From Hyphomicrobiaceae bacterium (lineage in GTDB: Bacteria > Pseudomonadota > Alphaproteobacteria > Rhizobiales > Xanthobacteraceae), in NCBI GenBank assembly GCA_021324465.1, contig JAJPJB010000065.1, positions 1-64,000 on the forward strand: a stretch of DNA of 64,000 bases, in the 5' to 3' direction. Positions 13,024-25,372 of the stretch are shown one piece after another (within the stretch, counting starts at the first letter, position 1; each line of letters starts with the position of its first letter). Below the pieces are notes generated by a model, which searched no databases, was not told the origin of the DNA, and worked only from the letters and a program-made list of their open reading frames with translations. A program made the position numbers and the translations under genes.

Positions 13024-14085
13024 CTAATTGCCCTCGCGCCAAATGCCGAGCGCTTCCTGCGCCGGGCGGTCGGAAATCGAGAACAGCACCGACTGCTCGG
13101 GCGCGTTATGGGAATAGCGCTTCCATGGCGGCACGACGAACACGTCGTTCGGGCCCCATTCGAGCACCTTGCCGTCGACCGCGGTGGTGCCGCGGCCTTC
13201 GACACAGACGAAGATCGTGCCGTCGGTCGAGCGATAGGGCTCGCCGCGAAAACCCTTTGGCAGCATGGCAAGGCAGGCGCTCATGGTTGGCAGCACCGGG
13301 CCGCCGGTGACCGGATTGGCGTAACGCACGCGCGCACCATGGCGTCTGTCAATATCGCCCGACTGCATCAGGCGCTCGACGATCGGCCGGGTGCGGGCAT
13401 AGGTGTAGTTGATGACGGGGCTGCGGTTCATCGCATGGGTGCCGTCGGGGAGGACACCTGAGCCATAGAACGCCAGCGAGTCGCCGTCTTTGCGCCTCGT
13501 CGCCTGCGTCGCATCCTCGAAATGCTCGGCGAAAGAGGCCTCGTAGAAATTCACCGCCGGGAAATCCAGCACGTCGAGCCACAACATCGGCTTGTCGGAG
13601 GGGTTGCCATGATCATGAGGCGCCCAGTTGGCGGTAATGACGAAGTCGCCGGGCGCCATGAAGGCCTTCTCGCCTTCGACTGCCGTATAGGCGCCCTCGC
13701 CGTCAAGCACGAAGCGGATCGCGGAGGAGACGTGGCGGTGGGCCGGCGCCACCTCGCCCGGCATGATCATCTGGACGCCGGCAAATAGCGTATTGGTGAT
13801 ACGGGACTCGCCGTGCAGTGCCGGATTTTCCAGGATCAGCACGCGCCGCTCGGCTTCCTCGGCGGTGATCAGGCCGCCGGATTCCATGACCAAGGACTTG
13901 ACATCGGCATAATGCCAGACATGCGGCTGACAGCGTGTCACCGGCTCCTTGGTCACGACCGACTTCATCACCTTCCATAGTGGCGCCATGTCCTTCTGCG
14001 CGATGCGTGCGTAGAACGCATCCCGCATGGCCTCGATATTGTGTTTCGAACTCGGCGTGCCCGTCTGAGTTGCGGCGACCGCCAT
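13024..14085 (-). CDS. Gentisate 1,2-dioxygenase-like bicupin
   Basis: A 353-aa double-cupin Fe(II) ring-cleaving dioxygenase, predicted to open gentisate (or a related salicylate) to maleylpyruvate. The first cupin shows metal-site residues H116 and H118 in PAHRHVSSAIRFVLDGEGAYT, and H157/H159 in ANWAPHDHGNP; the second has STDGTIFVCVEGRGTT and FVVPPWKRYSHNAPE. Length fits the family. The ATG has AAGGAGG upstream. It is the last gene of a minus-strand series with an SDR, FMN reductase, cytochrome c, ThDP enzyme, solute-binding protein and FAH hydrolase. FAH hydrolases can act on fumarylpyruvate, two steps later in the gentisate route. The exact aromatic substrate is inferred. Confidence 0.85.
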   Translation of the reverse strand: MAVAATQTGTPSSKHNIEAMRDAFYARIAQKDMAPLWKVMKSVVTKEPVTRCQPHVWHYADVKSLVMESGGLITAEEAERRVLILENPALHGESRITNTLFAGVQMIMPGEVAPAHRHVSSAIRFVLDGEGAYTAVEGEKAFMAPGDFVITANWAPHDHGNPSDKPMLWLDVLDFPAVNFYEASFAEHFEDATQATRRKDGDSLAFYGSGVLPDGTHAMNRSPVINYTYARTRPIVERLMQSGDIDRRHGARVRYANPVTGGPVLPTMSACLAMLPKGFRGEPYRSTDGTIFVCVEGRGTTAVDGKVLEWGPNDVFVVPPWKRYSHNAPEQSVLFSISDRPAQEALGIWREGN

Positions 14086-14214
14086 GGGGTCCTCCTTAAA
14101 AGAAATCGCGTCGCTCGCGGCGAATATAACGAAGCCGTTTACCGGCGAAAATAGCGGAAAATACCGCGCCCTTGCCGCAGGAAGCGGGGCTGCCATGCGC
14201 AGCGACGCGGCTCA

Positions 14215-14982
14215 TCAGGTATTAACGTTGCCGCCGTCGACCGCAATGGTCTGGCCGGTGATGAAGTCGCTGTCGGCGCTGGCAAGAAAGACCAGCGCAC
14301 CCAAAAGATCCTGTGGCGTCTCGTCGCGCTTGAGTGCCCGCGAGGCGACCGCCCGCGCTCGCGCCGTTTCGACATGGCCCGGATTTTCGGCAATGACTGT
14401 CTCGCTCATGGTGAAGCCGGGGGCGAGCGTATTGACCCGGATGCCCTGCTCCCCGAGCTCGCGCGACAACGCCCGCGTCATGGCCATGATGCCGCCCTTG
14501 GAGGTGACGTAATGCAGCATCCAGGGAATGCCGCGGAATGCCGTGCCCGACCCGATATTGATGATCTTGCCGTAGCCCTGCGCCGCCATATGCGGCGCGA
14601 CATGCTTGACCATCAGAAACGGCCCGCGCAGATTGATCGCCATCACCCGGTCCCAGAGCGCAGCGTCAATCTCGGTACATTTTTGCTCTTGCAGGGGCGC
14701 GAACAGCGCTGCGTTGTTGATCAGCACGTCGATCTTGCCGAACCGGTTCATGGTCTCGGCAACAAGGGTCCGCACGGCGCTTTCGTCGCTGACATCGGCG
14801 CGGCGGCTTGCCACCGAGTTGGCGCCGTGCTCACGCGCCAAGCCTTCAGCGAGCCCCTCGCCGTCGGCGATGTCCACGATCATGAGGCGCGCGCCCTCGG
14901 CGGCGAGCGCACGCGCATAATGCGCGCCGATGCCCTTGGCGCCGCCGGTAAGGATCGCGACGCGGCCGTCGAGACGTCCCAT
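14215..14982 (-). CDS. Short-chain dehydrogenase/reductase
   Basis: A 255-aa classical SDR using NAD(P)H. It has the cofactor motif TGGAKGIG near residues 12-19, NNAA near 89-92, and a catalytic Ser-Tyr-Lys set in IGSGTAFRGIPWMLHYVTSKGG. The C-terminus ends FITGQTIAVDGG, standard for the family. GAAGG precedes the ATG. It sits 129 bp upstream of the gentisate dioxygenase gene and 24 bp downstream of the FMN reductase, so it is probably co-transcribed and oxidises or reduces an intermediate of the same pathway. Specific substrate unknown. Confidence 0.92.
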   Translation of the reverse strand: MGRLDGRVAILTGGAKGIGAHYARALAAEGARLMIVDIADGEGLAEGLAREHGANSVASRRADVSDESAVRTLVAETMNRFGKIDVLINNAALFAPLQEQKCTEIDAALWDRVMAINLRGPFLMVKHVAPHMAAQGYGKIINIGSGTAFRGIPWMLHYVTSKGGIMAMTRALSRELGEQGIRVNTLAPGFTMSETVIAENPGHVETARARAVASRALKRDETPQDLLGALVFLASADSDFITGQTIAVDGGNVNT

Positions 14983-15006: not shown

Positions 15007-15576
15007 TTAGCGCTTCGGGCCGTGTTCGACAATGAATTTTGCGAAAGCTTCGAGCTGCTGCTTGATGAAGCCGATGGTCTGCTCATCCTTGATCTGGCCG
15101 GTCTTGTCGTCGATGCGCGCGGGCGCATTGCCGATGAAAATCTCCGGCTTGTTCATGGTGATGGCGTCGAGAAAGATCATGCAGCGGCGCAGGTCGTATT
15201 GCATGCGCCCGCCGCCCAAGATTCCCGCTGCCGCCGAAATGAGCGCGATCGGCTTGCCCGCAAAGGGCTGGTTCGGCATGCGCGACACCCAGTCGAGCGC
15301 ATTCTTCAAGCCACCCGGGATCGAGAAATTGTATTCCGGCGAAACAAAGATAACGCCATCGGCGGCGCGCACCGCCTCAGCGAGCCTCTGTACCGGAGCT
15401 GGAAACCCGGTCGAGTTCTGTATGTCGGCGTTATAGATCGGGAAATCGGCGAACGACGGCGCTTCGGTGATTTTCAGGCCTGCCGGCGCATAGCCGGGAA
15501 GCAAGTTCATGACAATGCGATTATAGGAACCCTTGCGCAGGCTGCCGCAAATACTGATCACACTGAGGTCGGGCAT
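15007..15576 (-). CDS. NADPH-dependent FMN reductase (flavodoxin-like fold)
   Basis: A 189-aa flavoprotein. The phosphate-binding loop ICGSLRKGSYNR is at the N-terminus and the flavin-ring-binding block FVSPEYNFSIPGGLKNALDWVSR in the middle, both typical of the NADPH-dependent FMN/quinone reductases (ChrR/YieF-like). It may supply reduced flavin or reduce quinones within the surrounding catabolic operon. The start at 15576 has GAGAG upstream; an upstream extension in the same frame lacks family similarity. Confidence 0.9.
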   Translation of the reverse strand: MPDLSVISICGSLRKGSYNRIVMNLLPGYAPAGLKITEAPSFADFPIYNADIQNSTGFPAPVQRLAEAVRAADGVIFVSPEYNFSIPGGLKNALDWVSRMPNQPFAGKPIALISAAAGILGGGRMQYDLRRCMIFLDAITMNKPEIFIGNAPARIDDKTGQIKDEQTIGFIKQQLEAFAKFIVEHGPKR

Positions 15577-15704
15577 CTGATCTCTCTCGTCATTGAATAC
15601 CGATGGGCGACTGATGGGCGCCGGAGCGGCCCAGCGCACCAAGATGACCTATGGCCCGAACTGCCGCAATGCCAGCACGCGCCGCGTATCCTTGGGCAAG
15701 TCCT

Positions 15705-16082
15705 TCAATTGTTCAGGACGGCAATATCCTTGGGAGAGCGGCGACCCGACAGCGACTGCACGAAAGCGTAGATATCGGCGATGTCCCTGTCCGATAGGAT
15801 GGCGTCGGAATAGGCCGGCATATCGTTGACCGGATTGCGGATCTGCATCTTGAAGCCCTCGAACGGCAGCGCCGTCTTGGCGAGGATCGGCGCCGGGCCA
15901 TTATAGGCGCCGCCCTGGCCGGAGCGGCCGTGACAGGTAAAGCAGCCGTCGGCGAGATAAAGCCGCTTGCCGTTGGCCGCATCGCCGGGCGGGGCGTTTT
16001 GCGCCGCCGCGACTGTGGTTGCGACCATGCCGTACAGCGCACCGGCAACAATGGCCCGCGCGATGTGTTCAAACGACGTCAT
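15705..16082 (-). CDS. Periplasmic class I cytochrome c
   Basis: A 125-aa exported monoheme cytochrome. It has a signal peptide (cleavage near ATTVAAA/QNA), the heme site CFTCH (C47, C50, H51) and a probable distal Met88 in NPVNDMPAYSDAILSD, followed by the usual C-terminal helix (DRDIADIYAFVQSL). AGGAGG precedes the ATG. It starts only 12 bp after the stop of the Tat-exported ThDP enzyme, implying co-translation and a role as electron acceptor for a periplasmic oxidation. The electron partner is inferred from context. Confidence 0.93.
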   Translation of the reverse strand: MTSFEHIARAIVAGALYGMVATTVAAAQNAPPGDAANGKRLYLADGCFTCHGRSGQGGAYNGPAPILAKTALPFEGFKMQIRNPVNDMPAYSDAILSDRDIADIYAFVQSLSGRRSPKDIAVLNN

Positions 16083-16094
16083 CGTGCGCCTCCT

Positions 16095-18026
16095 CTACCG
16101 TGGGTCGGTGACGACATCGACCACGGCCGGCCGGCCGCTCTTGACGGCGGCGATGGCGCGCGTGAGCGCCGGCGCCAGATCTTGCGGGTCGGTGATCGGA
16201 CCTTCCCCGTACGCGCCCATGCCGCGCGCCACCGTGGCGTAATCGATATTGGGATCTTTGAGCGTCGTGCCGATGTCCATCTTGGTGACATCGCGCCCAT
16301 GCCGCGCCGCCATCGCCACGAGGTACATGTATTCCTGGTGATAGGCGCGGTTATTCTGGATGACGTAGAGGATCGGTATTTGGTGGTGCGCCGCCGTCCA
16401 TAACGCGCCAGGATTGAACATGAAGTCGCCGTCGCCGCCGAAGGCGAGCGTGAAGCGGCCATGCTTCTTGTTGGCAAGCGCCGCGCCGATCGAGGCCGGC
16501 AGATTATAGCCGACGCCGGCCCCGCCGGAACTGCCGTTCCACTGATACGGCTTGTTGAAGTCCCATAGCCGGTGCGGCCAGGACAGCCTGATCGTCGTAC
16601 CGACCACCGACCAGTCTTCGTTCTTGATCTGGTTGTAGACTTCGGCGCACATGCGCGCGGTGGTGATCGGGCTCGCATCCCAGCCGATCGTGGCATCGCT
16701 CTTCGACTGTTCGACCATTGCCAGATGCGCGGCGGCAAGCTTCTTGCCCCGCGCTTCAAAAGCCGAACTTTTGGCATCATCGGTGAGCCGCTTCACCGCT
16801 TCGGTAAGGGCCGGCAGCGAGGCCTCGCCGTCGCCGGCGATGTCGAGATCGACATCCTGCCAGCGGCCGAAGTCCTGATAATTTGATTTCAGATAGAGGT
16901 CGCGCACGCCGAGCGTGATGACTTTCGCGCCGGGCTTGGTGCCCGGCCGCGAGCGGCGCACGATCCGATCGCTGAAATGGGTGAGTGTGCCCCATAGATC
17001 GTTCATCTCGATCGCCAGAATTACGTCCGCCTGTCCGATCAGTGCCCGGCGAAAGCTCTGGTTGAGCGGATGCCGTGACGGGAAGTTCATCCGTCCGGCG
17101 TTGTCGATGACACCGCATTGCAGTGCTTCGGCAAGCGCGACCAGATTGGCCATTCCGGCCGGCGTGCGTGCCACGCGATCGCAGACGATGATCGGATTCT
17201 GCGCCTCGACCAGCATTTTTGCGGCTTCGGCGATGGCGCCGGCGTCGCCCTGCGGCGGCACGACGGGTGCGAATTTCGGGATGCGCAGGCTCTCCGCGTC
17301 GGCGATCGGATTTTCCTGCAGCTCGGCATCGAGCGCGATAAAGACCGGGCCCATCGGCGGGGTGGTTGCGATCTTGTAGGCGCGCACTGTCGACTCGGCG
17401 AAATGTGTCAGCGAGGCCGGCTGATCGTCCCATTTGGTGAATTCGCGCACGATCTGGCCGATATCGACGCCGGCATGCAGCCACTCCGCGCCCGGCGCGC
17501 GCTTATCCGCCTCCATGATATTGCCGCCGAAGACGAGAACCGGCACACGGTCGCACCAGGCGTTGTACATCGCCATGGTCGCGTGCTGCAGGCCGACCAC
17601 GCCATGGCAGGCCATCGCCATCGGCTTGCCCTCGATCTTGGCATAGCCCTGCGCCATGTGGACCGCGATGTCCTCGTGCACGCAGGTGATGATCTCCGGC
17701 CTGTTGTTGGTGTGATTGACGATCGCCTCGTGCAGGCCGCGATAGCTCGAAGCGCAATTGATCGCCATGTACTCGATGCCGAGCGCATTCAGCACCTCGG
17801 CCATGAAGTCGCCGCCGCTCGAACCCTGGTTCACGGGATCGCTCGAGGGACTGAGCGCCTCGACTGCGGTCTGCAGCGGGCCGGGCAGCGCCGCTTTCGA
17901 TATTTCCTGCGGCGCGGCCGGAAAGGCCGTGGCGGCAGGCGGCGCGACCGCGGCAGCAGCACCGGCGAGGCCGGCGGCTCTCAAGAAATTGCGGCGGCTG
18001 GAATCGGCAATTCTGCGCTCCGGCAT
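16095..18026 (-). CDS. Tat-exported thiamine-diphosphate-dependent enzyme
   Basis: A 643-aa member of the acetolactate synthase/benzoylformate decarboxylase superfamily. The C-terminal domain has the ThDP motif GDG (531-533), 24 residues, then NN (558-559); the N-terminal domain has a catalytic glutamate at E118 in ITCVHEDIAVHMAQGYAK. Unusually, it starts with a twin-arginine signal, SSRRNFLRAAGLAG (R11, R12), followed by an Ala-rich stretch, so the folded cofactor-loaded enzyme should go to the periplasm. GGGAGG precedes the ATG. The next gene is a cytochrome c. The substrate is probably an aromatic or aliphatic 2-oxo acid, but this is inference. Confidence 0.87.
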   Translation of the reverse strand: MPERRIADSSRRNFLRAAGLAGAAAAVAPPAATAFPAAPQEISKAALPGPLQTAVEALSPSSDPVNQGSSGGDFMAEVLNALGIEYMAINCASSYRGLHEAIVNHTNNRPEIITCVHEDIAVHMAQGYAKIEGKPMAMACHGVVGLQHATMAMYNAWCDRVPVLVFGGNIMEADKRAPGAEWLHAGVDIGQIVREFTKWDDQPASLTHFAESTVRAYKIATTPPMGPVFIALDAELQENPIADAESLRIPKFAPVVPPQGDAGAIAEAAKMLVEAQNPIIVCDRVARTPAGMANLVALAEALQCGVIDNAGRMNFPSRHPLNQSFRRALIGQADVILAIEMNDLWGTLTHFSDRIVRRSRPGTKPGAKVITLGVRDLYLKSNYQDFGRWQDVDLDIAGDGEASLPALTEAVKRLTDDAKSSAFEARGKKLAAAHLAMVEQSKSDATIGWDASPITTARMCAEVYNQIKNEDWSVVGTTIRLSWPHRLWDFNKPYQWNGSSGGAGVGYNLPASIGAALANKKHGRFTLAFGGDGDFMFNPGALWTAAHHQIPILYVIQNNRAYHQEYMYLVAMAARHGRDVTKMDIGTTLKDPNIDYATVARGMGAYGEGPITDPQDLAPALTRAIAAVKSGRPAVVDVVTDPR

Positions 18027-18183: not shown

Positions 18184-19179
18184 TCAACTGCTCGGCGAAT
18201 TGAGCAGCGCCGGCGCGACCACCTCTTTCCAGCTTTTTGGCACGGTTTTCAGTTCCCCGTGCCGGCCCATGAAATCGGCAGTCGTCTGCATGCCGAAAAC
18301 GGGGCTGCCGAACTCGTCCTTAATCTCGCGGATCACCGCCTCCATCGCGGCGCCGTTGATCACGCTTGAGGGTTCGTGGGTGAGATAGATCTGCGCGGCG
18401 CGGCGCGGATCGTCATGGACTATGCGCGCCGCTTCGTCGATCGCTTTTTCGATCACCTCGGGCAATTGCGGATGGGCATCGATATAGGCTCGGGTCGCGC
18501 CGAGGATGAGAAACGAGGACTTGCCGCCCATCACCTCGGATGAATTGAGCACGGCATGCACGTTCGGATCGCGCAGGGCGATCTGAGTGAACGGCGGCGA
18601 CGAAAAATACGCCTTCACCGGCCCGCTACGCTCGACGAGATCGCTGATCGCCTGCGCATGCGGCAGCGCCACCACTTGACCGCGCAGCTTGTCATATTGG
18701 CCGAAACTCTTTTCCGATTGCAGCTCCAACAGATACATTTGCGGCGAGGACAAAGTCGGCATCGCAATCTCGTCCGCCGGCTTGAAGTCGGCAATGGTTT
18801 TCACCCCCGGCTGATTGCTCAGCAGCACCAGCGGCAGGGATGTCATGCCGGAGACAACAAGAATCTGCCGCGGCTTGTCTTTGCCCTGCTGCCAGGCCGC
18901 AAGCAAGGGCGCCGGGCCGAACGGTGCAATATCGACTGCGCCAGCGGCAATGGCGCCCTGCACGTCTGCCGCACTGGTGAAGCGCTGAAACTCGGCCTTC
19001 AGCTCGAGATGCGCGTCCTTGCCGTGCTTTTCGATCAGCTTTAAATCTTCGCAGATATAGATCGGCAGAAAGGCAAGGCCGAAGCCGACGCCGATCTTGA
19101 GCTGACCCTGGGCGAGCGCGGGAGCTGAGCCCGCGCACAGCGCAAGCGCAGCCGCCACGATGCGCAGAAACCGCCTCAT
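18184..19179 (-). CDS. ABC-type solute-binding protein (NMT1/THI5-like)
   Basis: A 331-aa periplasmic binding protein of the NitT/TauT/SsuA class. A signal peptide (MRRFLRIVAAALALCAGSAPALAQ) precedes LKIGVGFGLAFLPIYICEDLKLIEKHG, the usual start of the first lobe, and GAVDIAPFGPAPLLAAW further on. No permease or ATPase gene is adjacent. Its place between the FAH hydrolase and the ThDP enzyme suggests it captures the aromatic substrate of the operon. The start at 19179 was chosen because it begins the signal peptide; the frame opens at 19215. Confidence 0.88.
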   Translation of the reverse strand: MRRFLRIVAAALALCAGSAPALAQGQLKIGVGFGLAFLPIYICEDLKLIEKHGKDAHLELKAEFQRFTSAADVQGAIAAGAVDIAPFGPAPLLAAWQQGKDKPRQILVVSGMTSLPLVLLSNQPGVKTIADFKPADEIAMPTLSSPQMYLLELQSEKSFGQYDKLRGQVVALPHAQAISDLVERSGPVKAYFSSPPFTQIALRDPNVHAVLNSSEVMGGKSSFLILGATRAYIDAHPQLPEVIEKAIDEAARIVHDDPRRAAQIYLTHEPSSVINGAAMEAVIREIKDEFGSPVFGMQTTADFMGRHGELKTVPKSWKEVVAPALLNSPSS

Positions 19180-19227
19180 CTGCGACGCTTCATCTCGCCG
19201 CTGCGCGCGCGACATCGGTCCGACCGA

Positions 19228-20100
19228 CTACTCGTTGGCGATCGGATTGCGCAACGTGCCGATGCCTTGGATTTCCACTTCCACCGTGTCGCCGGCTTTC
19301 ATCCAGACCGGGTTGGGCTTGCGCGCATGGCCGACGCCCGACGGCGTACCGGTGAAAATGACGTCGCCGGGCTCGAGCGTCATGCCTTGGCTGATATAGA
19401 CCAGCATCTCGACAACCGGAAACATCATGTTGTCGGTATTGTCGGACTGCATCACCGTGCCATTGAGCCGGCTCTCGATCTTGAGCCCCTTGGCCGCAGC
19501 CGGCAATTCATCAGCGGTGACCAGCCACGGGCCGAAGCCGCCGGTGCGATCAAAATTTTTGCCCATGTCCCACTGCGTCGTCTTGCGTTGATATTCGCGC
19601 ACCGAGCCTTCGTTGCCGCACGAATAGCCGGCAATGCAGAACGTCGCATCGGCGGGGGTGAGATGCTTGGCGCGCTTGCCGACCACCAGGATCAACTCGG
19701 CTTCATAGTCGAGCGTCTCCGACACTTGCGGGCGGATGATCGGCTCGCCATGCGGCACCAGCGAGGTGAGCCCGCGCATAAAGATCGTCGGGAATTTCGG
19801 AATATTGTCGCGCTGTGAGCCTTCCTTGACGTGCTCGAGGTAATTAAGGCCAAGGCATATGATCTTTCCCGGCCGGCCGACCGGCAGCGAATATTTCAGG
19901 CCGGCGAGCGGCTTGCGGGCCGCGGCCGGCGCCCCTTTGGCAAGGTCGGCAAGCGGCTTGGTGTCGCCGTTGGTCTTTCTCAAGAACTCGCCGAGATCGC
20001 TCGGCACTTTGCTGTCGACAGCCTGCAGATCGATCACCTGATCGCCTTCGACCACGCCAAGACGCGGGCCCGCCTGCCCTTCGAACGCAACGATCTTCAT
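19228..20100 (-). CDS. Fumarylacetoacetate hydrolase family protein
   Basis: A 290-aa FAH-fold hydrolase/isomerase. Key blocks are ICLGLNYLEHVKEG, the metal-binding ETLDYEAELILVVGKRAK, GYSCGNEGSVREYQRKTTQWDMGKNFD and the C-terminal VIFTGTPSGVGHARKP. Such enzymes cleave C-C bonds in acylpyruvates; with a gentisate dioxygenase in the same gene set, fumarylpyruvate hydrolase is the best guess. AAGGAAG precedes the ATG. It is the first gene of the minus-strand set and so lies next to its probable promoter. Confidence 0.9.
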   Translation of the reverse strand: MKIVAFEGQAGPRLGVVEGDQVIDLQAVDSKVPSDLGEFLRKTNGDTKPLADLAKGAPAAARKPLAGLKYSLPVGRPGKIICLGLNYLEHVKEGSQRDNIPKFPTIFMRGLTSLVPHGEPIIRPQVSETLDYEAELILVVGKRAKHLTPADATFCIAGYSCGNEGSVREYQRKTTQWDMGKNFDRTGGFGPWLVTADELPAAAKGLKIESRLNGTVMQSDNTDNMMFPVVEMLVYISQGMTLEPGDVIFTGTPSGVGHARKPNPVWMKAGDTVEVEIQGIGTLRNPIANE

Positions 20101-20325
20101 GCTCTTGCTTCCTTCAATGAGGTCCAATGGGCGGCGGACTATATCGGCCCGCATGGCGCCAATCTACCGGGCTGCAGCGCGCCCCAAGATACGGTGCAAT
20201 AACCGCAGCAGGCCAAACATTTCGTCAGAAATTTTATTCGGTATACAATGGCATAAGCACGAGCGCAGCGGAAATGAGCGCAGCTCAGTGGCGACGGCGC
20301 CCCACTTCCGGCGGAGATTTTTGGC

Positions 20326-21126
20326 ATGGCAGCTGTCCCGCTGATCCACATTTGCGATGCATGCAAATCATACGATGCCGGCCGCTCATTCGCCGTGCAC
20401 AAGGCAAATCTGAGCGTTGCCGAGGGCGCTTTTGTCGCACTGGTCGGCACCAGCGGATCCGGCAAGACCACGCTTTTGAAGTTCATCAATCGCCTGGTTC
20501 AGCAGGACAGCGGCAGCGTGGCGGTCGCTGGCAGGGAGACGCTGAGCAGTGACGTTCTAAGCCTTCGCCGGAGCATCGGCTATGTTTTCCAGAACGCCGG
20601 ACTGTTTCCGCACATGAGCGTGGCGGAGAATATCGGAATTACACCTGATCTCCTCGGATGGCCTGCTGAAAGAATAACGTCGCGTGTCGCCGAGCTCTTG
20701 GAGTTGCTTGAATTGCCGCGCGGCTATGCGTCGCGCTACCCGGCGACATTGTCCGGCGGTGAACGTCAGCGCGCTGCTGTGGCGCGGGCGATCGCGGCCT
20801 ATCCCAGGATCGTACTCATGGACGAACCGTTCGGCGCGCTCGATCCTCTCACCCGCGACACCATCGGCGCCACATATAGAAAACTGCACGATCAATTCGG
20901 CTTCACCACGCTGATGGTCACCCATGACGTGCAGGAGGCGATCCTTCTTGCCGACCAAATCGCGGTCATGAAATCGGGCCGGGTGCTTGCGCAAGATACG
21001 CCACGGCGTTTGATATTGGAAAATAGCATCCCTGACGTTTCGGCCCTGATATCCGTTCCACGACGCCAAGCTGAACAGATTCGCGCTGCCATTGACTCGC
21101 GCAATGAAGGCAATGCTCATGGGTGA
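20326..21126 (+). CDS. Glycine betaine/osmoprotectant ABC transporter ATPase
   Basis: A 266-aa ABC ATPase. Walker A is GTSGSGKTT near residue 42, the signature LSGGERQR, Walker B RIVLMDEPFGALDP and the switch histidine in MVTHDVQEA. The FQNAGLFPHMSVAENIG block and overall similarity place it in the OpuCA/ProV/YehX group. No C-terminal CBS domains are present. GGAG lies nine bases before the ATG. It overlaps the downstream permease-binding protein fusion by eight bases. Confidence 0.92.
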   Translation: MAAVPLIHICDACKSYDAGRSFAVHKANLSVAEGAFVALVGTSGSGKTTLLKFINRLVQQDSGSVAVAGRETLSSDVLSLRRSIGYVFQNAGLFPHMSVAENIGITPDLLGWPAERITSRVAELLELLELPRGYASRYPATLSGGERQRAAVARAIAAYPRIVLMDEPFGALDPLTRDTIGATYRKLHDQFGFTTLMVTHDVQEAILLADQIAVMKSGRVLAQDTPRRLILENSIPDVSALISVPRRQAEQIRAAIDSRNEGNAHG

Positions 21127-22678
21127 GCGGCTTGCCAATGCGATCCGGCTGTTACCCGAATATCTGCTTCAGCACGTCTTGTTGTCGGCGGCCGCGCTTA
21201 TTCTCGGCATGCTGCTTGCCATCCCGTTGACGATACTGGCGGTCCGCCGCCGGCGCGCCGGATCCTGGGTGTTGGCCGCCACGAGTCTTGTTCAGACGGT
21301 GCCCGGGCTTGCGCTCCTGGCCTTGTTCTATCCAATTTTCCTTGGCCTGTCGCGGCTTTCGCAGACCCTGTTCGGCGTCGGCGTTCCTGCGCTGGGGTTT
21401 CTGCCGAGCGTCGCTGCGCTCACGCTCTATTCAATGTTGCCGATGGTGAGAAACGGCGTCGCCGCCTTCACCAATCTCGATCCGGAAGTGATCGACGCGG
21501 CGAACGCGGTAGGCATGACCGCGCGCCAACGCTTTTTTCGCGTGGAAGTGCCGATGGCGGCGCCGGTCGTCATGGCCGGAATTCGCACGGCAGCGGTTTG
21601 GACCATCGGGGCAGCCACTTTATCGACGTCCGTCGGACAGACGAGCTTGGGCAACTACATCTTTTCCGGCTTGCAGACGCAGGACTGGACCTCCGTTCTG
21701 TTCGGCTGCATCGCCGCCGCGGCGCTGGCCTTCGCGGTCGATCAAATTCTTGGGCTGATCGAAATCGGCCTGTCGCGGCGAAATAACAGGCTCACTTATT
21801 TTGGCCTGACCACCTTCGCGATCGCCCTTGGCGGCGCAATCGCATGGTCGGGCGAAATGCGTGCGCCGGGTTACACGGTCGGCGCGAAAAACTTCAGCGA
21901 ACAGTTCATCCTTGCCGAACTGATCTCGCAGCGGCTGATAAGCGCTGGCGCAACGACCCAACTGCGGACCGATCTTGGCTCGGCCGTCGCCTTTCGCGCA
22001 CTCGCCGGCAATGAAATCGATGTCTACGTCGATTATACGGGTACGCTATGGCTCAATGTCCTGGGGCGGCGCGACCTGATCTCAGGCGAGGCAATGCAGA
22101 AGGAACTTAAAAACCTGTTGGCGAGAAACTATGGCGTTCTTCTGCTCGGGCCGCTTGGCTTCGAAAACGCCTACGTCCTCGCCATGCGGCGCGAGCAGGC
22201 GGCGGCGCTGCACATAACCGGAATAGGCGATCTGGCGCGCTATGCGCGGCGGCTTACGCTGGGGGCAGATCTGGAGTTTTTGAGCCGACCGGACTGGACC
22301 ATGATCAAGAACACTTATGGTTTGCAGTTCGGCGCAACGCGCGAGTTCAATCCGACCTTCATGTACAAAGCCATTGAGGACGGCACCGTGGATGTCATCT
22401 CGGCATTTTCCAGCGATGGCCGGCTTGCCGCAGAAAATCTCCTGACGCTCGCCGATCCGCAGCATGCCGTTCCCTCTTATGACGCGGTCATCCTGCTCTC
22501 GCCGCAAAGGTCGCAAGACGGCCTCCTCATCAAGGCGCTTGCACCGTTGCTGGGGCATATTTCTCTCGAGAAGATGCGCGACGCAAATCTGATGGTGGAT
22601 CGCGACGACGGCAAAGCGACGCCTTTGCAAGCGGCGCAATTCCTGGCGCGGACGATCGATCAGCCGAAATCGCAATGA
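21119..22678 (+). CDS. Fused permease and substrate-binding protein of a glycine betaine-type ABC transporter
   Basis: A 519-aa fusion. The N-terminal part (about 1-235) is an OpuCB/ProW-like permease with several membrane helices and the EAA-loop region VIDAANAVGMTARQRFFRVEVPMAAPVVMAG. A further membrane segment (FGLTTFAIALGGAIAWSG) leads into a periplasmic OpuCC/ProX-type binding domain, with YTVGAKNFSEQFILAELIS, ALAGNEIDVYVDYTGTLW and KNTYGLQFG. Fusions of this kind are known in this transporter family. GAAGG lies eight bases before the ATG at 21119. The ligand (betaine, choline or another quaternary amine) is not decided by sequence. Confidence 0.9.
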   Translation: MGERLANAIRLLPEYLLQHVLLSAAALILGMLLAIPLTILAVRRRRAGSWVLAATSLVQTVPGLALLALFYPIFLGLSRLSQTLFGVGVPALGFLPSVAALTLYSMLPMVRNGVAAFTNLDPEVIDAANAVGMTARQRFFRVEVPMAAPVVMAGIRTAAVWTIGAATLSTSVGQTSLGNYIFSGLQTQDWTSVLFGCIAAAALAFAVDQILGLIEIGLSRRNNRLTYFGLTTFAIALGGAIAWSGEMRAPGYTVGAKNFSEQFILAELISQRLISAGATTQLRTDLGSAVAFRALAGNEIDVYVDYTGTLWLNVLGRRDLISGEAMQKELKNLLARNYGVLLLGPLGFENAYVLAMRREQAAALHITGIGDLARYARRLTLGADLEFLSRPDWTMIKNTYGLQFGATREFNPTFMYKAIEDGTVDVISAFSSDGRLAAENLLTLADPQHAVPSYDAVILLSPQRSQDGLLIKALAPLLGHISLEKMRDANLMVDRDDGKATPLQAAQFLARTIDQPKSQ

Positions 22679-22746: not shown

Positions 22747-23718
22747 TCACTCGCCGTCGCGGCGAAACGTCAGCACGCCGAACAGGCCGTCAGTCCAGGC
22801 CTTGAGCGGCGCCCAGCCAGTGCCGCGCGCCAGCGCCTGAAAGGATTCGATCGTATATTTGTAGCTGTTCTCGGTGTGGATCGTTTCACCGGCACGGAAG
22901 CTGAAGGCTTTGCCGTTCACCTTGACCTTCTGCCGCTTGGTGCTGGCGAGATACATTTCGATCCGGTTCTTGTCGCGATTGTAGCAGGCGTGATGCTCGA
23001 ACGCACCGAGATCAAAATTGGCGTCAAGCTCGCGATTGATGCGCGCCAGCACGTTGAGATTGAACTTCGCGGTGACGCCCTCCGCATCATTGTAAGCGGG
23101 ACAGAGGATCGCGGCGTCTTTGACCAGATCAACGCCGATCACCAGCACCGCATCCGCACCCAGCACAGCGCCGGCGTGCCGCAAAAACTCGGCCGCCTCA
23201 TGCGGCTCGAAATTGCCGATGGTCGAGCCCGGAAAGAAGCCCACGCGCGGCAGCGCAGCAATCTGCGGCGGCAGCTCGAACGGCCTGGTGAAGTCGGCAA
23301 TGACCGGTTGCACCACAAGGCGGGGAAAATCGCGGCGCAACTGGGTCAGATCGCCTTGCAGAAAATCACCGGAAATATCGACGGGCACATAGGCTTCCAC
23401 GGTCGCTGCGGCGCCGAGCAGAATGCGCGCCTTCTTGCTCGAACCGGCGCCGAATTCAATCAGCACGCAGCCCTGCGGAAACAGCGACGCAATCGCCGGA
23501 GCCTGCGCGCGCAACAACGCGATTTCGCAACGCGTTGGGTAATATTCCGGCAACTGCGTGATGCGCTCGAACAGCGCGGAGCCGGCGAGATCGTAGAAAT
23601 ATTTCGGCGGCAGACGTTTGGGTTTTGCCGCCAGACCTTCGAGCACGTCGGCGGCAAAGGCTTCGCTCGTTGCGATGGACCGTGCCGCTCGGCGAGCAGC
23701 CTGCATTGCGGTGGGCAT
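22747..23718 (-). CDS. egtD: L-histidine N-alpha-methyltransferase
   Basis: A 323-aa SAM-dependent enzyme that trimethylates histidine to hercynine, the first step of ergothioneine synthesis. Characteristic blocks are KYFYDLAGSALFERITQLPEYYPTR (split here: KYFYDLAGSALF, ITQLPEYYPTR), the SAM site LIEFGAGSSKKARILL around E88, VGFFPGSTIGNF and the C-terminal SYKYTIESF. Length fits EgtD. It lies 42 bp downstream of egtB and is surely co-transcribed with it. Confidence 0.95.
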   Translation of the reverse strand: MPTAMQAARRAARSIATSEAFAADVLEGLAAKPKRLPPKYFYDLAGSALFERITQLPEYYPTRCEIALLRAQAPAIASLFPQGCVLIEFGAGSSKKARILLGAAATVEAYVPVDISGDFLQGDLTQLRRDFPRLVVQPVIADFTRPFELPPQIAALPRVGFFPGSTIGNFEPHEAAEFLRHAGAVLGADAVLVIGVDLVKDAAILCPAYNDAEGVTAKFNLNVLARINRELDANFDLGAFEHHACYNRDKNRIEMYLASTKRQKVKVNGKAFSFRAGETIHTENSYKYTIESFQALARGTGWAPLKAWTDGLFGVLTFRRDGE

Positions 23719-23760
23719 GTTGTTCTCGTTAGGAGCTTATTTGAAGGCTACTTCTGCTAC

Positions 23761-25065
23761 TCAGCTTTCATATTCGGCAAGGCGCAAACCGGAGAATTGC
23801 CAGCGCGCCGGCGGATAAAAGAAATTACGATAGGACGGCCGTGCGTGCCCGGCCGGCGTTGCAAGCGAGGAGCCGCGCAATACCATTTGGTTGACCATGA
23901 ACTTGCCATTGTATTCGCCAAGCGCTCCGGGAGCTGCCTGGTATCCGGGATAGGCCGTGTAGGCGCTGCGCGTCCACTGCCACACGACGCCAAACGCGTC
24001 GCCAAGCGCGCCGGCTTTGGCGGCGGCCTCCCACTCCGCTTCCGTCGGCAAGTGCCTGCCGGCCCAGCGCGCAAACGCATCCGCTTCATAATAGCTGATA
24101 TGGCACACCGGCCTGTCGGGCTCGACGCAGCGCAATCCGCCGAGCGTCAGTGAAAACCACGCGCCATCGACCTTGCGCCAATAACCGGGCGCATTCCAGC
24201 CTTGCGCCGCCACCGTCGTCCACCCGTCGGAGAGCCACAGCGTCGGCGTGCTGTAGCCGCCATCGGCCATGAATTCGAGCCACTCGCCGTTGGTAACCAG
24301 CGACGGCGAAAGACGTACCGGTTGCAGCAGGACCTGGTGCGCCGGCTGTTCGTTGTCGAAGCAAAATCCTGCACCGTCATGCCCGATTCTGTGAATGCCA
24401 TGCAGCGTGACACCGCCGTTGAACGCCTTGCCGGCCGGCGGCCATTGCCAACTCGGATCGTAAACCGGAGAGGTCTCGTTGAACGAGAAGGCATGCAGAA
24501 TATCGGTGAGCAGCAATTCCTGATGCTGCTGTTCATGATGTAGTCCGATTTCGATGATCGGGATCAGCGCGTCAAGATTTTCCGCAGTCTCGATCAGCTG
24601 CGTGACAGCATCGTCGACATGGGCGCGATAGGCGGCGACTTCGTCAATGCTTGGCCGCGTGATCAGGCCGCGCTGCGGGCGTGCCTGGCGCGGACCGGCA
24701 GAGATGTAATAGGAATTGTACAGGAAAGCGAAACGCTCGTCGAAGACGCGATAGTTTTTGGCATGCGGCCGCAACAAAAACTGCTCGAAAAACCATGTCA
24801 CATGCGCGCGGTGCCATTTGGTCGGGCTGGCGTCCGGCATCGACTGCACGACCTGGTCTTCCGCCGACAGCAATGCCGCGCGGCGTTCCGTCTCGGCGCG
24901 CACGGCTTGAAAAGCTTTAAGCCAATCCTGACGCAGGGCGTGGCGCGCGCGATCGCGCGCCGCGCGATGCGGGGGCTCGGCGAGTTCACTTGACGATGCG
25001 GAAGCGGCCAAATCAGCGGCCAGGTCGGAAGGCCGAGTGTGCGCCGAAGCGCCCGATTGTGACAT
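23761..25065 (-). CDS. egtB: Hercynine oxygenase/sulfoxide synthase EgtB
   Basis: A 434-aa non-heme iron enzyme joining hercynine to gamma-glutamylcysteine or cysteine. It has an N-terminal DinB-like helical domain with WHRAHVTWFFEQFLL and the iron-binding HEQQHQELLLTDI near residue 176, and a C-terminal formylglycine-generating-enzyme-like (FGE-sulfatase) domain with PTEAEWEAAAKAG, WQWTRSAYTAYPGY and VLRGSSLATP. The ATG at 25065 follows a 16-bp tandem duplication with no good ribosome site. Together with egtD it forms the two-gene bacterial ergothioneine core; egtA, egtC and egtE are not nearby. Confidence 0.94.
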   Translation of the reverse strand: MSQSGASAHTRPSDLAADLAASASSSELAEPPHRAARDRARHALRQDWLKAFQAVRAETERRAALLSAEDQVVQSMPDASPTKWHRAHVTWFFEQFLLRPHAKNYRVFDERFAFLYNSYYISAGPRQARPQRGLITRPSIDEVAAYRAHVDDAVTQLIETAENLDALIPIIEIGLHHEQQHQELLLTDILHAFSFNETSPVYDPSWQWPPAGKAFNGGVTLHGIHRIGHDGAGFCFDNEQPAHQVLLQPVRLSPSLVTNGEWLEFMADGGYSTPTLWLSDGWTTVAAQGWNAPGYWRKVDGAWFSLTLGGLRCVEPDRPVCHISYYEADAFARWAGRHLPTEAEWEAAAKAGALGDAFGVVWQWTRSAYTAYPGYQAAPGALGEYNGKFMVNQMVLRGSSLATPAGHARPSYRNFFYPPARWQFSGLRLAEYES

Positions 25066-25372
25066 GATAAGAGTCCGCAAATGTAAGAGTCCGCAAATGC
25101 CGGCCCAACTGCAGGTTTCCCCTACCGCAGGTTTCAGTGTCTGGAGATAATGGGCCCCCGGCAGCTTGGTTCCATAGATGAGCGAGACAGTTCCCACTGC
25201 AATGCGAATCAGGACGATTTAACGCTGTTGTGAAGGCACGGCAAAAGCCCCTTGGAAAACCACGATAAAATCGTCACGAGGTGGAAGTTGTCGTCGATCA
25301 AGCGACCGACGTATGTTTTGCGCTCGGTTTTGGCAAGTGGGCGCTCGACCAAAGGGTAAAAACGGGGGAGGG
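25066..25372. other. Divergent intergenic region between egtB and a deacetylase gene
   Basis: Holds both divergent promoters. It contains two perfect 16-bp tandem copies of TAAGAGTCCGCAAATG (25068-25099) directly upstream of the egtB start. No further gene or recognisable operator is seen. Confidence 0.55.

Follow-up and report, generated by a model that had tools for sequence, protein, structure and literature searches.

What might a ThDP-dependent enzyme do outside the cytoplasm, with a small cytochrome c encoded directly beside it? ThDP enzymes are, as far as we know, textbook catalysts of the cytoplasm, and the question is raised by two adjacent genes in a stretch of 64,000 nucleotides from a Hyphomicrobiaceae bacterium (contig JAJPJB010000065.1), hereafter the window. 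In the reading that we favour, and hold to be fairly probable, the pair constitutes a periplasmic cytochrome c oxidoreductase that acts on a 2-oxo acid (or an acyloin or aldehyde) without NAD and CoA, and would form a two-gene extracytoplasmic respiratory module.

The enzyme gene occupies positions 16095..18026 on the minus strand and encodes a protein of 643 residues counted from its ATG start, a longer frame of 693 residues from an upstream TTG start being the alternative in the ORF list. The Pfam domains TPP_enzyme_N, TPP_enzyme_M and TPP_enzyme_C all score above their cut-offs in the protein, which is predicted to be exported by the Tat route. The GDG-X24-NN cofactor motif and catalytic Glu reported in the initial annotation were both confirmed, with GDG at residues 531-533, NN at 558-559 and 24 residues between them (a spacing kept in 77/83 family members, with 23 residues in 6/83), and with the Glu at position 118. 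Among the residues singled out in the window enzyme (Glu118, His141, His563 and Glu565), Glu118 and His141 align with a Glu and a His of benzoylformate decarboxylase; we take the former counterpart to be the catalytic Glu47 and assume a corresponding role for the His. The three TPP domains in order, the GDG...NN motif and the Glu place the protein in the ThDP superfamily, within the decarboxylase/acetolactate synthase type. Its predicted structure, built from 46 aligned family members, has a mean pLDDT of 86, with values below 50 over residues 1-48, the pattern that a signal peptide and linker would give. Protein lengths range from 556 to 673 residues across the 83 loci of the wide sample, the shortest being clipped by a contig edge, and no fusion of the enzyme and cytochrome genes was seen in these 83 loci.

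Benzoylformate-decarboxylase-like ThDP enzymes are the nearest solved folds according to both profile search and Foldseek. Scores against curated models all lie below the respective cut-offs: 281.6 bits (cut-off 456) for PRK08327 (NF006203; 'thiamine pyrophosphate-requiring protein'), the best-scoring NCBIfam model, 152.8 bits (cut-off 493) for the benzoylformate decarboxylase PRK07092, and 87.3 bits (cut-off 742) for the pyruvate oxidase PRK08611. These values bear on the possibility that the protein is an exported flavoenzyme resembling pyruvate oxidase, in which electrons would move from ThDP to a bound flavin and then to the cytochrome. Flavin-carrying ThDP enzymes, among them acetolactate synthase and glyoxylate carboligase, do share the fold and occur among the Foldseek matches, but the closest proteins by sequence and fold are benzoylformate decarboxylases, which we take to be flavin-free, and the pyruvate oxidase score is the one just given. 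We regard such a flavoenzyme as improbable, and the oxidoreductase proposed above as the better description.

Residues 1-40 of the enzyme (17907..18026, minus strand) form a Tat signal peptide region, recognised from the motif SSRRNFLRAAG, a hydrophobic stretch, a TAT_signal match and conservation; the ATA at residues 32-34 is the likely cleavage site. The Pfam TAT_signal match spans residues 10-28 and reaches 20.7 bits, just below the cut-off of 22.7 bits. In a thinned family alignment, from which L046, L049 and L076 (start cut or unclear) and L097 were omitted, R11 and R12 are invariant in 46/46 rows and F14 and L15 are kept at ≥90%, which bears out the Tat signal read at the outset even with the Pfam score alone just under its threshold. 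Defined as RRx plus two hydrophobic residues (FL in nearly every case), a Tat-type twin-arginine N-terminus is found in 79/82 related loci, a fraction that is not an unbiased estimate because 80 loci were picked by similarity to three Tat-bearing seeds. In the three exceptions, the sequence begins at a contig edge (L049) or has no clean start (L046 and L076). A TatC gene is present in the window's own genome, so that the S/T-R-R-x-F-L motif, the hydrophobic stretch, conservation in homologues and TatC, the features expected of a Tat substrate, are found together. Export of the ThDP enzyme by Tat is strongly supported by these features. Proteins exported by Tat fold and load their cofactors beforehand, and Tat rather than Sec would fit here since the protein must bind its cofactor before export.

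The partner gene (15705..16082, minus strand) encodes a predicted exported mono-haem cytochrome c of 125 residues, identified from its ORF, Pfam matches, conservation and structural model. Its haem site, CFTCH, lies at residues 47-51, and Met88 is the likely second axial ligand of the haem. The Pfam domains Cytochrome_CBB3 and Cytochrom_C both score above cut-off, and C47, C50, H51, R82, M88 and P89 are invariant in 41 aligned cytochrome partners. The predicted model is helical (mean pLDDT 84), and CxxCH, the Met ligand and the helical fold together assign the protein to class I. Among 72 partner cytochromes from related loci, 69 have Met-Pro after the haem site and 7 have two haem motifs. The enzyme stop had been placed 12 bp from the cytochrome gene, and this was confirmed, both genes lying on the minus strand with an intergenic gap of 12 bp (16083..16094, minus strand) whose AGGAGG is likely a ribosome-binding site. 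Genes for cytochrome c assembly are present in the window's own genome. On a Novosphingobium plasmid (L031:8686-9398), two small CxxCH genes follow the Tat-type ThDP gene in succession.

Conservation of the pair was assessed by a profile scan of a species-genome collection, using a seed alignment of three members (the window, a Caballeronia plasmid and the Novosphingobium plasmid). The scan returned at least 583 relatives, of which the best 80 were examined; by record title these comprise 44 Acidobacteria-type, 29 Alpha-, 4 Beta- and 2 Gammaproteobacteria and one 'Deltaproteobacteria' MAG. MAGs account for 72 of the 80 and isolates for 8. The isolates with the pair are seven Bradyrhizobium and Steroidobacter agaridevorans, to which the Caballeronia zhejiangensis and Novosphingobium plasmids are to be added, and contamination of a single MAG was rejected as an explanation because isolates carry the pair too. 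A cytochrome was counted when a CxxCH frame on the same strand possessed a start codon and had its haem motif no more than 600 bases from the ThDP stop, its start being the candidate with the most hydrophobic N-terminus (all scored 10 or 11 of 11). By this rule, a cytochrome c lies directly downstream in 72/81 assessable loci, window included (83 related loci, with L068 and L097 not assessable). Nine loci lack one (L060, L063, L070, L081, L086, L090, L092, L099 and L100); a cytochrome is encoded farther downstream in L081, L086 has a CxxCH frame whose product shows no recognisable signal, and inspection by eye of eight of the nine revealed no consistent third enzyme or alternative acceptor. 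In the control set of other ThDP loci, the same rule found a cytochrome in 0/27 and a Tat-type N-terminus was likewise seen in 0/27 (26 distinct genes, L006 being the L008 gene; strands were set by tblastn, and L007, with no match, and L015 and L026, with short downstream sequence, were uncounted). The search for conserved ThDP-cytochrome pairs that the initial annotation had suggested thus gave 72/81 loci against 0/27 in the control, and a coincidence peculiar to the window was rejected, the pair being conserved in relatives.

A second comparison covered 296 genomes from the bacterial family to which the window belongs, in which the family profile gave 51 matches at ≥647 bits in 38 genomes, none between 647 and 589 bits, and 44 matches below this gap. 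Besides the window, 45 of the 50 top-tier matches were examined, the remaining five being mostly partial: a cytochrome was found in 45/45 and the Tat motif in 44/45, the exception, L130, being a match that begins only at profile position 21. In the lower tier, represented by 20 of the 44 matches (those with stops avoided) and by L115 from the phylum scan, both counts were 0/21. Some top-tier sequences are common to both samples, so the wide and family counts are not independent. A phylum-wide draw of 398 genomes (E up to 1e-120) contained one exported member, the window itself, and an order-level draw of 297 genomes contained none near the window's own score, the next best reaching 438 bits; the exported-type gene is thus rare outside the window's family.

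The two tiers also bear on whether the RR motif could be a non-working signal, with the enzyme remaining in the cytoplasm and the cytochrome a merely frequent neighbour. The window's TAT_signal score, below the curated cut-off, is the point in its favour, but 46 divergent rows all keep R11 and R12, and the Tat motif and the cytochrome co-occur, both being missing in 21/21 lower-tier and 27/27 further loci. With the twin arginine invariant and the two traits absent together in the lower-tier homologues, a cytoplasmic location was rejected on sequence grounds, and we give it very little credence compared with a periplasmic oxidoreductase. The two outcomes that the initial annotation named as refuting it, a cytoplasmic protein and an unconserved gene pair, thus both run counter to the sequence evidence.

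The exported enzymes are also set apart by their phylogeny and active site. In a tree of 159 sequences (L006, L007, L008, L024 and L026 left out), the 113 exported-type tips, including the cytochrome-less ones, form one group containing no other tips, with moderate support (0.75, and 0.91 on the sister side). Its members come from Alpha-, Beta- and Gammaproteobacteria and from Acidobacteria. Among the nine loci without a cytochrome, seven sit beside cytochrome-bearing ones, and the L099/L100 pair forms an early betaproteobacterial branch in which the Tat motif is present and no cytochrome occurs within 600 bases. Glu565, Asn382 and Glu100 are each found in 113/113 exported sequences, their places being taken in 43/43 non-exported homologues by Asp, Trp and Asp, respectively; His563 is kept in 111/113, against Tyr in 28/43 and Phe in 11/43 of the non-exported sequences, and Met567 in 113/113 exported ones. 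Glu118 and His141 are common to all 113 exported and all 43 non-exported sequences, and the signature NNRx(Y/W)HxExM is complete in 79/83 loci. Given this split of residues (113/113 versus 43/43), the Tat signal, the cytochrome and the active-site change mark the same group.

If the two proteins work together, their divergence might be expected to run in parallel. Distance matrices of enzyme and cytochrome are correlated over 104 non-redundant pairs of 113 (Mantel r 0.786), a value reached in 0/2000 permutations, the highest of which gave 0.088; L073 was omitted from this analysis, as were L046, L049 and L076, whose starts are odd or cut. Because shared genome ancestry adds to such a correlation, paralogues were taken as a control, using five of the nine genomes with at least two pairs, the five sharing two types of pair, with one copy of each. 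Same-type copies from different genomes have mean distances of 0.11 and 0.12 for the ThDP enzyme and of 0.26 and 0.27 for the cytochrome, whereas the two copies inside one genome are separated by 0.51 and 0.62, respectively. Paralogous enzymes each retain their own diverged cytochrome type. A functional pairing of the ThDP enzyme with the cytochrome c is strongly supported by these comparisons, and the co-encoded exported cytochrome, the mark of membership in the proposed class of ThDP:cytochrome c oxidoreductases, is a conserved one.

The genes around the pair were examined for clues to the substrate. Just upstream in the window, on the minus strand, lie genes for an NMT1/SsuA-like exported substrate-binding protein (18184..19215; Pfam NMT1_2, cluster 10), which holds the same position in L035 and L037, and for a fumarylacetoacetate-hydrolase family protein (19228..20154; Pfam FAA_hydrolase), possibly in the same transcript as the pair. 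Downstream, also on the minus strand, follow an NADPH-dependent FMN reductase family protein (15007..15579; Pfam FMN_red, cluster 20), with counterparts after the pair in L036, L037 and L039, a short-chain dehydrogenase (14215..14982; Pfam) and a gentisate 1,2-dioxygenase (13024..14088; TIGR02272, 468.6 bits against a cut-off of 442.1). The FMN-reductase-like gene, the short-chain dehydrogenase and the gentisate 1,2-dioxygenase accompany the pair in L036 as well, where the dioxygenase scores 449.4 bits against TIGR02272. An aromatic 2-oxo acid, the substrate type suggested for assay in the initial annotation, is compatible with this setting, a weak clue confined to the window and L036; neighbours elsewhere differ. 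On the strand opposite to the pair, positions 20326-22678 of the window encode an ABC ATPase and, after it, a permease that carries a fused OpuAC-type binding domain. Positions 22747-25197 hold two genes that we take to be ergothioneine-biosynthesis-like, for an EgtD-like methyltransferase and an EgtB-like protein.

Clustering of neighbours over the 83 loci found none conserved besides the cytochrome, and the pair can therefore be regarded as a free-standing module. The largest other clusters are an MHS-like transporter (10/83 loci) and then a TctC-type binding protein (7/83), while of two clusters with 8 loci each, cluster 4 appears to be a scattered ABC ATPase and cluster 3 a frame antisense to the cytochrome gene. 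Among the 109 of 220 eligible neighbours scanned against Pfam and NCBIfam (seven redundant loci, the window and very long proteins omitted), tripartite tricarboxylate binding proteins account for 5, MFS for 6, TcuA for 3 and TcuB for 2. TcuA-like tricarballylate dehydrogenase genes adjoin the module in some Acidobacteria, such as L059 and L074 (cluster 8, 5/83), and in Phyllobacterium (L033:2766-8613) a non-exported homologue directly follows a complete tripartite tricarboxylate transporter. These hints are thin, and no substrate is claimed from them.

The neighbourhood bears more directly on another explanation, in which the enzyme would be a periplasmic non-oxidative decarboxylase releasing an aldehyde, or would join or cleave C-C bonds, with the cytochrome serving another dehydrogenase that oxidises the product. 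Glu565 lies where pyruvate decarboxylase presumably has a catalytic Glu that protonates the enamine, and would for that reason suit a protonating, non-oxidative reaction. Candidate dehydrogenases do occur: a molybdenum-hydroxylase pair (2Fe-2S subunit and large subunit with an RR motif) directly follows the ThDP-cytochrome pair in L034 (L034:10065-12768) and possibly shares its cytochrome, and PQQ-dehydrogenase-like genes, judged from sequence, are found at 5/83 loci (cluster 9), a PQQ domain being present in 2/109 neighbours. Against this, no third enzyme is conserved, the largest non-cytochrome cluster reaching 10/83, and through paralogue divergence it is the ThDP enzyme that the cytochrome follows. 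A non-oxidative lyase is rated next after the cytochrome c-linked oxidoreductase, and we consider it unlikely.

Were the pair such an oxidoreductase, the enzyme would fold and bind ThDP and Mg2+ in the cytoplasm, Tat then exporting the folded protein, and in the periplasm the enzyme would attack a carbonyl compound, for which a 2-oxo acid is the likeliest candidate. Release of CO2 would yield an electron-rich ThDP enamine, with Glu118, His141 and Glu565 in place, and this enamine, instead of being protonated alone, would give up two electrons, singly, to the cognate cytochrome c. The resulting acyl-ThDP would be hydrolysed by water to the carboxylic acid, and the cytochrome would deliver its electrons to a terminal oxidase. 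The periplasmic steps are deduced from the chemistry of the family together with the strict enzyme-cytochrome pairing. The conservation of Glu118, His141 and Glu565 is in keeping with oxidative decarboxylation of a 2-oxo acid, and such an acid is probably the compound oxidised, with an acyloin or aldehyde as the alternative. Where the initial annotation had proposed a periplasmic oxidative decarboxylation with electrons passed to cytochrome c, the export and the pairing have gained comparative evidence, but the chemistry is still a deduction; the substrate, the electron transfer, the independence from flavin and the export itself are what we infer.

A broader and more tentative proposal, to which we lend somewhat less than even weight, is that these pairs represent an undescribed class of extracytoplasmic oxidoreductases, spread over at least two phyla, in which a c-type haem directly oxidises the enamine without flavin, Fe-S, NAD or CoA. 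Soil bacteria could then use 2-oxo acids, acyloins or aldehydes as periplasmic respiratory substrates, and paralogous pairs within one genome would be tuned to different ones. We know of no precedent for direct electron transfer from ThDP to haem. If the proposal is correct, periplasmic respiration would acquire a new cofactor type, borne by an exported clade with a dedicated cytochrome in scores of genomes, and soil bacteria would possess an undescribed route by which electrons from small organic molecules enter respiration outside the inner membrane. It would also offer a possible case of ThDP-to-haem transfer for study and a 2-oxo acid oxidation free of NAD and CoA that might be useful in biocatalysis and biosensors, and would give a function to genes, for instance in Caballeronia, whose annotation stops at 'thiamine pyrophosphate-binding protein'.

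Several known systems each share part of this arrangement. The best solved relatives are benzoylformate decarboxylases (MdlC; PDB 1bfd, 4q9d and 6qsi), cytoplasmic and non-oxidative enzymes with the same three ThDP domains; the window enzyme shares 20-22% identity with them in fold alignments and differs in its Tat-type signal, its cytochrome partner and its Glu565, which aligns with Leu in benzoylformate decarboxylase. The non-exported homologues L145-L164, at 30-40% identity, have neither Tat motif nor cytochrome; Glu565 is replaced in them by Asp, Asn382 by Trp and His563 in most cases by Tyr. The use of ThDP is shared with PoxB and the flavin enzymes of acetolactate-synthase type; PoxB needs neither NAD nor CoA to oxidise a 2-oxo acid, but works on the cytoplasmic side, with a flavin and a quinone acceptor. 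The 2-oxoacid:ferredoxin oxidoreductases oxidise the ThDP enamine in one-electron steps, as proposed for the window enzyme, but are cytoplasmic and use CoA and iron-sulfur clusters; a Pfam scan found no iron-sulfur domain in the window pair. In architecture, the pair matches exported dehydrogenases with a small cytochrome c, such as the sulfite dehydrogenase SorAB, in which a redox enzyme passes electrons to the cytochrome; the familiar examples use molybdenum, PQQ or flavin, and we know of none with ThDP. D-malate:cytochrome c oxidoreductase is reported as another exported enzyme-cytochrome c system (PMC12294151). In a literature search that covered subscription journals only slightly, and sources in part, no periplasmic or Tat-exported ThDP enzyme with a cytochrome c was recognised. 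The ThDP fold is thus known, as is the format of an exported enzyme with a small cytochrome c; what is new, to our knowledge, is a ThDP enzyme in that format.
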